Below, piece by piece: positions 3,246 to 34,696 of a stretch of DNA of 64,000 nucleotides. Each line of letters starts with the position of its first letter. The stretch's first letter is position 1. Source of the DNA: Dechloromonas aromatica (nom. nud.). Lineage in GTDB: Bacteria; Pseudomonadota; Gammaproteobacteria; Burkholderiales; Rhodocyclaceae. Both the position numbers and the translations under genes were made by a program. Location of the stretch: assembly GCA_017848965.1 (NCBI GenBank), contig JAFIHA010000048.1, positions 62,001-126,000 of the forward strand, read 5' to 3'. The notes below the pieces were generated by a model that was not told the origin of the DNA, made no database searches, and was given only the letters and a program-made list of their open reading frames with translations.

Positions 3246-3330
3246 TGGTGCCGACGGCGAGACTCGAACTCGCACAGCTTGCGCCACTACCCCCTCAAGA
3301 TAGCGTGTCTACCAATTTCACCACGTCGGC
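3246..3330 (-). tRNA. tRNA-Leu (anticodon GAG)
   Basis: An 85-base tRNA gene on the minus strand with encoded CCA at 3246-3248. The acceptor stem pairs GCCGACG with CGTCGGC. The D-arm has the GGTAGAC sequence typical of leucine tRNAs, and the anticodon loop TTGAGGG on the stem CTATC/GGTAG gives anticodon GAG. There is a class II variable arm and a T-loop GTTCGAGTC. It lies between secG and nuoA, as in many betaproteobacteria, so it is probably processed from a longer transcript. Confidence 0.97.
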
Positions 3331-31925: not shown

Positions 31926-33062
31926 ATGTCTAAACGCGATTTTTACGAAATCCTCGGCGTCAACCGCGACGCTTCGGACGACGAAATCAAGAAGGCCTAC
32001 CGCAAGCTGGCCATGAAGCACCACCCGGACCGCAACCCGGACAATCCGGGCGCCGAGGAAAAGTTCAAGGAAGCCAAGGAAGCCTACGAAATCCTCTCCG
32101 ATAGCCAGAAGCGCGCCGCTTACGACCAATATGGTCACGCCGGCATCGACCCGCAGTCCGGCATGGGAGGGTTCGGCGGTGGCGGTGGTGGCGGCTTTGC
32201 CGACGCCTTCGGCGGCATCTTCGACGAGATCTTCGGTGGCCGGGCCGGCGGCGGCGGTGGCGGCGGTCGTTCCAACATCTACCGCGGCGCCGACCTGCGT
32301 TACAACCTGGAAATCACGCTCGAACAGGCCGCGCACGGCACCGAAACCAAGATCCGCATCCCGACCATGGAGGAATGCGAGGTCTGCCACGGTTCCGGCG
32401 CCAAGGCCGGCACCCAGCCGAAGACCTGCCCGACCTGCGGCGGCTCCGGCCAGGTGCGCCTGCAACAAGGCTTCTTCTCGATCCAGCAGACCTGCCACAA
32501 GTGCCACGGCACCGGCCGCTTCATCGCCGACCCGTGCACCAACTGCGGCGGTGCCGGTCGTATCAAGCAGCACAAGACCCTGGCGGTAAAGATTCCGGCC
32601 GGCGTGGACGAAGGCGATCGCATCCGGCTCGCCGGCGAGGGCGAACACGGCGTCAACGGCGGCCCGCCGGGCGACCTCTACGTGCAGATCCACCTCAAGC
32701 AGCACGCGGTGTTCCAGCGCGACCACAACGACCTCCACTGCGAAATGCCGATTTCCTTCACCACGGCAGCGCTCGGTGGCGAGATCGAAATTCCGACCCT
32801 GGATGGCGCCGCGGCCATCAAGATTCCGCCGGAAACCCAGTCCGGCCGCGTCTTCCGCCTGCGCGGCAAGGGCATCAAGGGAGTGCGCAGCCACACCCAC
32901 GGCGACCTGCTCTGCCATGTCGTCGTCGAAACCCCGATCAACCTGACCGAACGCCAGAAGGATCTGCTGCGCGAACTGGAGGAATCAAGCAAGGGTTCCG
33001 ACAAGCACAACCCCCGCGCCAAGTCGTGGATGGACAAAGTCCGGGAATTCTTCGGAGAATGA
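31926..33062 (+). CDS. dnaJ: Chaperone protein DnaJ (Hsp40)
   Basis: Co-chaperone that loads substrates on DnaK and triggers its ATPase. The product is 378 residues: J domain (about 1-70) with the HPD motif in [13 protein letters not shown], a Gly/Phe-rich region (about 78-125), and four zinc-binding CxxCxGxG repeats ([32 protein letters not shown]). The substrate-binding C-terminal domains end in KVREFFGE. The last codons are the beginning of a 96-bp tandem repeat that continues past the stop. Start ATG is at 31926. Confidence 0.98.
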
Positions 33063-33130
33063 TTTCCTGACCTTGCGGTGCAGGCTAACTTGCTCAAGCA
33101 AGTTAAGGGGCGTAGCCCCGGCCGGAACCA
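33035..33130 (+). repeat. 96-bp tandem repeat, copy A (includes the dnaJ 3' end)
   Basis: The first unit of a direct tandem repeat with an exact 96-base period. It begins in the last nine sense codons of dnaJ and contains the stop codon at 33060-33062. Copy B differs at 24 of 96 positions (my count) without insertions or deletions. The part after the stop holds two hairpins enclosed by a longer stem. Confidence 0.9.
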
Positions 33131-33135
33131 CAAGG
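33071..33135 (+). other. Three-helix structured element, copy A
   Basis: An outer stem pairs CCTTGCGGT (33071-33079) with ACCACAAGG (33127-33135), with one C-A mismatch, extended by GGC/GCC (33083-33085/33121-33123). Inside are hairpin 2, TAACTTGC/GCAAGTTA with loop TCAA (33086-33105), and hairpin 3, GGGGC/GCCCC with loop GTA (33107-33119). The fold is a three-way junction. I do not recognise the family. Confidence 0.7.
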
Positions 33136-33226
33136 CTCAGGAATTTTTCGGGGAATGATTCCCGTACCTTGCAGCGCAGGCTAACCCGCGTTGGCGGGTT
33201 AAGGCGCGTAGCGCCGGCCGCAGCTA
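33131..33226 (+). repeat. 96-bp tandem repeat, copy B
   Basis: The second full unit, directly adjoining copy A. Its first codons, read in the dnaJ frame, are H-K-A-Q-E-F-F-G-E-stop against [13 protein letters not shown] in dnaJ itself. The differences inside EFFGE are all synonymous. The frame between the two stops is open. Confidence 0.9.
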
Positions 33227-33231
33227 CAAGG
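33167..33231 (+). other. Three-helix structured element, copy B
   Basis: Same fold as copy A with different bases. The outer stem is CCTTGCAGC/GCTACAAGG (33167-33175/33223-33231), with GGC/GCC at 33179-33181/33217-33219. Hairpin 2 is TAACCCGC/GCGGGTTA with loop GTTG (33182-33201). Hairpin 3 is GGCGC/GCGCC with loop GTA (33203-33215). Five base pairs differ from copy A on both sides and stay Watson-Crick. Confidence 0.7.
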
Positions 33232-33251
33232 TCTGTGAATTCTTCGGCGAG
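33227..33251 (+). repeat. Partial third copy of the 96-bp repeat
   Basis: Only the start of the unit is present: the EFFGE-encoding segment (YKVCEFFGE in the dnaJ frame), after which similarity stops and the TGA position reads CAA. It lies exactly 96 bases after copy B begins. Confidence 0.8.
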
Positions 33252-33277
33252 CAAACCCGCGCCACCAGAAATGCAAA

Positions 33278-33300
33278 CGACCCGTTATCGAACGGGCCGT
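33278..33300 (+). terminator. Terminator between dnaJ and cysS
   Basis: CCCGTT-ATCG-AACGGG forms a stem extended outward by ACG/CGT with one mismatch, followed by TTTTC on the plus strand. It sits in the convergent gap and ends the chaperone transcripts. On the minus strand the T-tract is weak. Together with the repeats it accounts for the whole 263-base gap 33063-33325. Confidence 0.7.
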
Positions 33301-33325
33301 TTTCATTGATTGCCAGCGACGCTGT

Positions 33326-34696
33326 TCAGGCACGCCGCCAGGTGGTTCCCTGCGGACCGTCGTCGAGGACGATGCCAGCGGCCTTCAGCTCGTCGCGGAT
33401 GCGGTCGGCTTCAGCGAAGTCGCGCGCCTTCTTGGCCGCCGCACGGCTGGCGATCAATGCTTCGACCGCCGCTTCATCGATCCCGTCGGCCGCCCCACCG
33501 GCCCGCAGATAAGCCTGCGGCGCGCGTTCGAGCAATCCGATCACTCCGGCCAGAGCCTTGAGCAGACCCGACAGTTCCCCGGACTTCTGACGGTTGGCTT
33601 CGGCGGCCAGCTCGAAGAGGACGGCGATCGCACCGTGCGAATCGAAATCCTCGTTCAAGGCAGCGGCAAAACGGGCGGCAAAATCCTGCTTCCAGTCGAT
33701 GGCCACCGGCACCGGCGGCACGTCGCGCAACGTGAAGTAAAGACCGTCGAGCGAGCGCTTGGCGTCGTCGAGGTGGGCATCGGAATAGTTCAGCGGGCTA
33801 CGGTAATGGGCGCGCAGGATGAAGAAGCGAACGACTTCGGCATCGAATTTCTTCAGCACCTCGCGGATGGTGAAGAAATTGCCCAGCGACTTCGACATCT
33901 TTTCGTTGTCGACCCGGACAAAACCGTTGTGCATCCAGTAATTGACGTAGCCGCAGCAATTCGCGCCCTCGGACTGGGCGATCTCGTTCTCGTGATGCGG
34001 GAACTGCAGATCCTGACCGCCGCCGTGGATGTCGAAATGTTTGCCGAGCAGCGACGAACTCATCGCCGAGCATTCGATATGCCAGCCCGGCCGTCCTTCG
34101 CCCCAGGGCGACGCCCAGGCCGGCTCGCCCGGCTTGGCATGCTTCCAGAGAACGAAATCGAGCGGGTCCTGCTTGGCGGTATCGACTTCGACGCGCTCAC
34201 CGGCGCGCAGGTCGTCGAGCGATTTGCCGGACAGCTTGCCGTAGCCCGGAAACTTGCGCACCGCATAATTGACGTCGCCGTCGGCCGCCAGATAAGCCAG
34301 GCCATTGGCTTCGAGCTTACCGATCAGCTCCAGCATCTGCGGCACATACTCGGTCGCCCGCGGCTCGTGATCGGGGCGCAGCACGCCCAGCGCGTCGGCG
34401 TCCTCGTGCATGAAACCGATGAAACGATCGGTCAATTGCTGGATGCTTTCACCGTTCTCCGCCGCACGACGAATGATCTTGTCATCGATATCGGTAATAT
34501 TGCGAACGTAGGTCACCTCGTAGCCACGCGTTCTCAGCCAGCGATAAACCATGTCGAAGACGACCATCACCCGGGCATGGCCCAGGTGACAATAGTCGTA
34601 GACCGTCATCCCGCAGACATACATGCGAACCTTGTTGGCTTCGATCGGTTCGAAAACCTGCTTTTCGCGCTTGAGGGAGTTGAATATCTTTAGCAT
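33326..34696 (-). CDS. cysS: Cysteinyl-tRNA synthetase
   Basis: Class I aminoacyl-tRNA synthetase. The product is 456 residues. The zinc ligand and HIGH-type motif are [17 protein letters not shown] near the N-terminus. [10 protein letters not shown] is in the middle, and the KMSKS loop is [10 protein letters not shown]. The C-terminal anticodon region is helical and ends in [10 protein letters not shown]. Start ATG is at 34696. It converges on dnaJ and is divergent from the TPR protein gene. Confidence 0.98.

Follow-up and report, generated by a model that had tools for sequence, protein, structure and literature searches.

Two tandem copies of a three-helix element stand immediately behind a dnaJ gene in a 64,000-nucleotide stretch of the Dechloromonas aromatica genome (contig JAFIHA010000048.1, hereafter the window), and they raise the question of what such a fold is and whether it belongs to the chaperone gene, to its transcript or to neither. 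The initial annotation placed the element at 33071..33231 and offered three identities for it: a 3'-UTR stability element for the chaperone mRNA, a REP-like mobile palindrome, or a protein-binding platform.

The two copies share a fold kept by compensatory changes

Copies A and B align without gaps (mean column identity 86%), and the five compensatory changes that had been proposed between them are all present when the sequence is read base by base: in the outer stem G33077-C33129 becomes A33173-T33225 and T33079-A33127 becomes C33175-G33223, in hairpin 2 T33090-A33101 becomes C33186-G33197 and T33091-A33100 becomes C33187-G33196, and in hairpin 3 G33109-C33117 becomes C33205-G33213. The outer stem with two inner hairpins is likewise common to both, the predicted RNA fold of A and B being the same (-33.9 and -39.2 kcal/mol, z-scores of -3.1 and -3.4) and equalled by 2 and 1 of 200 shuffled sequences; folded as DNA, the copies gave z-scores of -4.0 and -4.7, and 0 of 200 shuffles did as well. 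The core of copy A runs through a stem, a GCA/GGA internal loop, a GGC/GCC stem, hairpin 2, a bulged A and hairpin 3, the last of which closes on a C(GTA)G loop. Since the reverse strands fold equally well or better by RNA energies, a single fold is silent on which strand matters.

In an alignment of 25 copies from the window genome and its relatives, the 24-pair structure was formed in 89.6% of the cells, and the covariation score of 0.400 compares with 0.137 for shuffled alignments (0 of 500 reached 0.400) and with at most 0.101 when the pairing partners were slid. Larger alignments of 78 and 99 distinct rows, which were fitted to the model and hence lean towards it, scored 0.476 against 0.142 and 0.300 against 0.111, respectively. 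The proposal that selection acts on the folded form is thus borne out by covariation in three alignments. Homologues are neither absent nor broken in their helices as often as expected by chance; a family was found, and its covariation is strong.

The extent given to the element did not survive as well. The copies do lie within 33071..33231, but this span is too narrow, as the dnaJ-end segment X (from 33035 on), its inverted counterpart X' and the gene-end repeats that follow each core also belong to the unit (Table 1). Nor is the outer stem wholly the element's own helix: its lower part is not private, because X' complements the gene end X and, less exactly, the second gene-end version X''. 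In copy A, which is worn, X matches the complement of X' at only 9 of 12 positions, and in copy B at 10 of 12. Both copies lie downstream of the dnaJ stop and upstream of a terminator-like hairpin.

Table 1. Parts of the dnaJ locus in window coordinates; the bar in GA|CAA marks the join.
Feature	Position	Strand	Remarks
dnaJ	31926..33062	+	ORF of 378 aa; 3' end holds the target motif GA|CAA and X
X, dnaJ-end segment starting after GA (GA|CAAAGTCCGGGAAT)	33035..33048	+	complementary to X'
X' of copy A	33062..33075	+	roughly the reverse complement of X; forms the 5' side of the lower outer stem
Core of copy A, C...A, 55 nt	33076..33130	+	covariance model 81.3 bits, E 2.1e-20
X'' after copy A, second dnaJ-end version	33131..33158	+	translates as HKAQEFFGE and stop; direct repeat 24/30
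X' of copy B	33158..33171	+	read from the sequence; complement of X
Core of copy B, C...A, 55 nt	33172..33226	+	covariance model 83.6 bits, E 4.2e-21
X'' after copy B, third dnaJ-end version	33227..33251	+	direct repeat of the dnaJ end, 21/30
Hairpin then T-rich stretch, probable dnaJ terminator	33276..33308	+	read directly; stem predicted

At the Rfam gathering score no match to the element was obtained in the window or in seven related loci, and below that score the window gave weak matches on the opposite strand only. One such likeness, to sX6, covers 33254-33350 on the minus strand (21.1 bits against a gathering score of 40, E 0.0015) and may simply reflect the terminator region. An ordinary tRNA gene lies at 3249-3330, also on the minus strand.

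The family is widespread in the order

With a 181-base stretch of the window as query, two more relatives turned up in the same genome, and 20 of 60 related genomes gave a match. A regular expression recovered one copy in 16 loci, and a covariance model built from the 25 aligned copies was used instead; in the window genome a strict sequence pattern returned the two window copies only, whereas the model returned nine. Searched against genomes, as had been suggested, the model produced homologues in the genus, order and phylum samples alike, with the element present in 58 of 76 genomes of the genus, in 122 of 399 genomes of the order (58 of 158 genera) and in 9 of 398 genomes sampled from the phylum, one of the nine lying outside the order. 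Copy counts in these scans are lower bounds, because 67 or 12 candidates per genome were scored. With 150 candidates scored in each of ten carriers, the counts ranged from 7 to 53 copies per genome (window genome, G000, 9; G063, 12; G062, 7; G100, 35; G224, 11; G321, 11; G118, 53; G435, 19; G222, 7; G334, 41). Strict pattern matches, in at least 115 stretches, include Azonexus, Dechloromonas, Propionivibrio, Gallionella and Sideroxydans, as well as Ferriphaselus, Methylobacillus, Methylophilus and Zeimonas. Plasmids queried by blastn with the window copies, and viral contigs queried with one hairpin variant, gave no match. The element is real, widespread and structurally selected, and arrays of two to six tandem units exist. 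A strong copy (E 7e-15) was also seen at locus L278 in a genome from another order of the class (G655), a possible case of long-distance transfer.

The same core stands at unrelated gene ends

Among the matches listed, the core lies downstream of dnaJ, ftsW (before murG), nrdA, cysH, argF, serS and metK, and upstream, in antisense, at the starts of ruvC and galU; in G118 it also occurs at the 3' end of 5S rRNA. The gene names and the 5S assignment are our own reading of the translated ends and of the 5S sequence. Across 45 clean cases, 35 cores are in sense orientation and 10 in antisense at gene starts. A 3'-UTR stability element specific to the chaperone is unsupported by this distribution, because the same core stands at unrelated gene ends.

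Ends that lack the element were sought at dnaJ loci from 30 genomes of the genus, which were picked as having no listed dnaJ copy and all of which (30/30) matched the dnaJ translation. Element-free ends do exist: 0 of these 30 loci matched the model even at an E-value of 1, and in the 26 in which the gene end could be read it was mostly single. The exceptions are L259 and L271, which hold worn remnants, and L270, with perhaps a trace of X'. A core flagged at the L275 locus proved to be a chance match 186 bases downstream.

Anatomy of the unit and of its join site

The complete unit consists of a gene end with GA|MAA, from which X starts, followed by a spacer, X', the core (about 55 nt, with C as its first base and A as its last) and X'', a second version of the same gene end. 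The outer stem of the initial annotation is X' paired with X'', so that one piece of a larger and stranger unit had been caught. Among 184 distinct units with enough flanking sequence, 174 have a core with the C and A ends and were kept, ten being dropped; their 165 distinct cores measure 34 to 76 nt (median 54), and the bulged A is conserved in all 145 that could be parsed.

Comparison with 870 controls, in which the flanks of different loci were paired, supports each arm of this arrangement. The 12 bases that lead up to the core match the reverse complement of an upstream stretch at 10 or more positions in 114 of 174 units but in only 24 of the 870 cross-paired controls; for the 30 bases that come after it, a direct repeat of an upstream stretch (20 positions or more) was found in 108 of 174 units and in 17 of 870 controls. 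The two matches agree on the upstream place to within two bases in 104 of 174 units and in 78 of 870 controls. By their X:X' and X:X'' scores 104 units were accepted, X, X' or X'' being too poor in the other 70 of the 174; in those accepted, X' is 8-22 nt long and X lies 26-205 nt from the core. The units are not independent, as many stand at the same genes in related species.

The join itself is constant. In the 91 distinct contexts from the accepted units, the base before the join is always A (91/91) and is preceded by G in 75, the commonest contexts being GA|AAA and GA|CAA; the method itself imposes some of the A's that follow the join, but not the GA that precedes it. In 12 of the 91 the join is preceded by GCCA or GCTA, like the end of a preceding core. 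Since the core itself ends in A and is then followed by MAA, target and element offer the same join. We regard the anatomy and the family of the element as firm, and this part of the best explanation as very probably correct.

The second gene end looks like that of a diverged ortholog

The nature of X'' was addressed by comparing it with X codon by codon. Of 105 units, 45 could be read cleanly in frame, 26 being dropped as too short, 22 as ambiguous and 12 for want of an open reading frame. Differences between X and X'' number 78, 18 and 256 at codon positions 1, 2 and 3 (over 612, 610 and 636 sites), and the differing codons comprise 234 synonymous and 47 other changes; past the first 14 bases the pattern persists, with 49, 16 and 173 differences at the three positions. 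Drift as duplicated non-coding DNA would have spread the changes in X'' evenly over the codon positions, and at the silent-site rate it predicts about half as many differences at position 2 as at position 3, where 18 and 256 are seen. X and X'' have therefore diverged largely while coding, and a simple target-site duplication followed by drift is rejected as the origin of X''. To judge from its codons, X'' looks like the end of a diverged ortholog.

Which of the two ends came with the core was approached at dnaJ. At the two most variable silent sites of 13 units, X' agrees with X in 11 and 10 and with X'' in 6 and 3. At the first of these sites, where the numbers are small, G is found in X'' in 10 of 13 units and in 21 of 26 readable element-free relatives, but in X in 5 of 13. 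Over the 104 accepted units X is closer to X' than to X'' in 71, equally close in 13 and less close in 20, a count that favours X' because the units had been chosen partly by their X:X' score. In many of 29 alignments, moreover, the spacer between the duplicated gene end and X' has no counterpart after X'', which likewise agrees with the upstream part being foreign. The simplest account of these patterns would be that X, X' and the core arrived jointly by recombination and that X'' is the resident end. Alternatively, allelic exchange may have renewed X, and hairpin correction may then have rewritten X' to match it, with no transfer of the whole unit.

The core strand is probably folded as DNA

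Several features of the core bear on the strand and the nucleic acid that folds. A C(GNA)G loop closes hairpin 2 in 65 and hairpin 3 in 87 of the 145 cores (of 165) that could be parsed, part of the sample having been fetched with a fixed hairpin-2 stem and the loop left free, and GNA faces GNA in the internal loop, whose two sides carry this motif in 159 and 162 of the 165 cores. GNA triloops make up 154 of 290 parsed loops, against 79 of 290 that are longer than three. Hairpin loops of the form C(GNA)G are unusually stable in DNA, and four-base loops of the GNRA or UUCG type are commoner in RNA motifs; GNA triloops can be stable in RNA too. The point about UUCG loops is raised for the STAXI motif in PMC2864571.

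Wobble pairs provide a second indication. In the core helices, read on the core strand, G.T pairs outnumber A.C pairs by 59 to 24, and in stems 1 and 2 counted without the model by 30 to 24; the larger excess comes partly from alignments fitted to the pairing model and is supportive at most, and the count without the model was biased in the hairpins. In the target-derived stem there is hardly an excess (77 to 67). The G.T excess favours the core strand as the one that folds and, less firmly, DNA as its material. Overall, action of the element at the DNA level is likely, and we lean towards folded DNA rather than RNA. The copies at dnaJ and at ftsW/murG are probably transcribed, and at some sites the core may act as RNA.

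Mobility and candidate mechanism

Comparison of 49 cores from genomes of the genus, with their genes labelled by simple expressions, gave a mean identity of 0.824 for the same gene in other genomes (186 pairs), 0.728 for other genes in the same genome (32 pairs) and 0.750 for different genes in different genomes; for 34 of the 49 the nearest neighbour stands at the same gene. Cores are thus more alike at the same gene across genomes, a pattern that gives no sign of recent jumping within a genome, and many sites may be inherited. That new sites have been founded is inferred because unrelated genes carry the same core, and every such site has an X' that matches it. As regards replication, copies lie against the fork in 10 of 11 (G435), 9 of 10 (G063) and 18 of 45 cases (G118), an inconsistent bias among three complete genomes counted by hand, with dnaA near base 400 and tandem copies taken as single; the counts cover 11 of 19, 10 of 12 and 45 of 53 copies, respectively.

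On balance, copies A and B appear to belong to a family of non-coding insertion elements of Betaproteobacteria that act as a folded single strand, most likely of DNA. In such a scheme a candidate enzyme would recognise the folded core strand, cut the target at GA|MAA and join the terminal A of the core to MAA; the gene-presence tests for reverse transcriptases and Y1 transposases pointed to no such enzyme. A repair polymerase would then use X'' (or X) as its template until it met the foot of the folded core, and sealing of the product to the 5' C of the core would create X'. Once placed, the unit could spread between species by ordinary homologous recombination, with the gene-end repeats serving as arms: a foreign gene end X would come in together with X' and the core, and the resident end would stay behind as X''. 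We hold the spread by recombination to be slightly better than an even bet, and the jump by cutting and filling in to be a tentative suggestion. Equally speculative is the broader idea that these units represent a new minimal class of mobile DNA, in which a folded strand of about 55 nt joins at GA|MAA, acquires a fill-in arm and becomes a gene-end-swapping recombination cassette, served by an unrecognised enzyme or by host repair.

Other explanations account for parts of these data. A structured RNA of mRNA 3' or intergenic regions, protecting or regulating transcripts and kept by host selection, would fit the strong covariation, the conservation of the fold at a single gene site in different species (in the dnaJ and ftsW cores), the position of the window copies between the dnaJ stop and the terminator-like hairpin, and the co-orientation with the gene in 35 of 45 clean cases. 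Against it stand the 10 of 45 in antisense at gene starts, the unrelated host genes, the prevalence of GNA triloops over longer loops and the lack of Rfam matches at the gathering score, with weaker ones confined to the opposite strand; X', GA|MAA and the diverged gene end are left unexplained, and we think this reading unlikely. The arm and the repeat would be explained were the element RNA-borne and put into target DNA by a reverse transcriptase, since a folded cDNA that snaps back at a nick and copies X would give both, and a C.A mismatch at the base of the core would be G.T in the cDNA strand. RVT_1, however, was found in 17 of 40 carriers and in 14 of 40 non-carriers (taken from a scan that scored 12 candidates per genome, so that a few may hold weak copies), no reverse transcriptase was found in G100 and G334, which hold 35 and 41 copies, and the synonymous divergence of X and X'' would remain unaccounted for; this route we consider quite improbable.

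The REP-like palindrome comes closest of the three identities originally suggested, as the element is small, dispersed, folded and near gene ends, with a constant GA|MAA join, and as 83 of 165 cores contain a GTAG and 16 of them start with CGTC. The REP features that were tested nevertheless do not hold: GTAG is located within a loop or internal loop, and CGTC has its GTC base-paired to GAC, which leaves neither as an unpaired tag, the fold is a three-way junction and not a single palindrome, and Y1_Tnp was found in 5 of 10 carriers, with none in the window genome, G100, G224, G334 and G435. Movement by a RAYT or an IS200/IS605 Y1 transposase accordingly has a slim chance of being the explanation. 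Old palindromes whose pairing is maintained by template-switch (quasipalindrome) correction alone, with neither function nor mobility, are the least credible of all; X is closer to X' than to X'', as correction within a hairpin would yield, but unpaired positions are conserved too (the bulged A, the GNA loops and the C and A ends), the same core stands at unrelated genes and GA|MAA is specific.

Relation to known systems

The REP/REPIN/RAYT papers describe another architecture (PMC3733652, PMC2817692). The element shares with the REPs and REPINs described there that it is small, non-coding, folded, dispersed and often adjoins coding regions, and departs from them in its core of about 55 nt, three-way junction, target-derived X' and gene-end repeat. 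REP/RAYT systems in particular have a single palindrome of 20-40 bp with an unpaired GTAG/CGTC end, whereas our element has no such tag and no Y1 transposase was found in half of the ten carriers (5/10). The likeness to the SDRs of cyanobacteria lies in very small size, mobile-like behaviour, a shared fold and compensatory changes; these are 21-27 nt long, and neither a target-complementary arm nor gene-end exchange is known for them. A MITE would have its own terminal inverted repeats and short target duplications; this identity was rejected, because the inverted arms X' and X'' are host gene sequence that varies from site to site and the repeat is not a neutral target duplication.

Some integrative elements enter the 3' ends of genes and make the gene whole again with an end that they bring with them. 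The present units resemble them in carrying a new end on one side and the displaced resident end on the other, but have no integrase or cargo that we could see, a total length of about 100-250 nt and the inverted arm X'. Replacement of the resident gene end by an element-borne one may have occurred here: the synonymous divergence of X and X'' would fit it, as would, at one dnaJ site, the likeness of X'' to element-free ends, with X as the putative incomer. Recombination at integron attC sites, too, involves a single strand in its folded form, although their architecture, with R and L boxes recombined by IntI, appears to be another one. The Burkholderiales-1 motif is a conserved structure that comes from the same broad group, is marked as uncertain as an RNA and has no Rfam number (PMC2864571); as the main text of that paper gives no details, it may or may not be identical with our element.

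No description of such an element was found in the open-licence literature, and one may exist elsewhere; in size, fold, join site, host-copied arm and diverged gene end it fits no described class that we found there. If the proposed reading is true, it would imply an unrecognised recombination activity on single-stranded DNA and a route for the exchange of gene ends between species. The family would also make a sharp test system, since each copy preserves a record of its target, of its arm and of the gene end that was displaced.

Composite and variant copies

Some copies in the ten carriers scanned in depth sit within a longer repeat. One such repeat, of about 210 bp and with ends like GGCCGTTGAAAAAC, contains a copy of the core (L228-L233 and L236-L238; for example, L236:891-1099) and is partly common to G118, G100 and G224; the element seems to travel inside a MITE-like repeat. 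Two further loci of G118, L234 and L235, are identical over 1603 bases and hold a shortened core between 22-base repeats that we take to be the 3' end of 5S rRNA. Finally, inspection by eye of L062 (second copy, minus strand) and L096 revealed variant cores with an extra small hairpin after GGCT, which might form a four-way junction.
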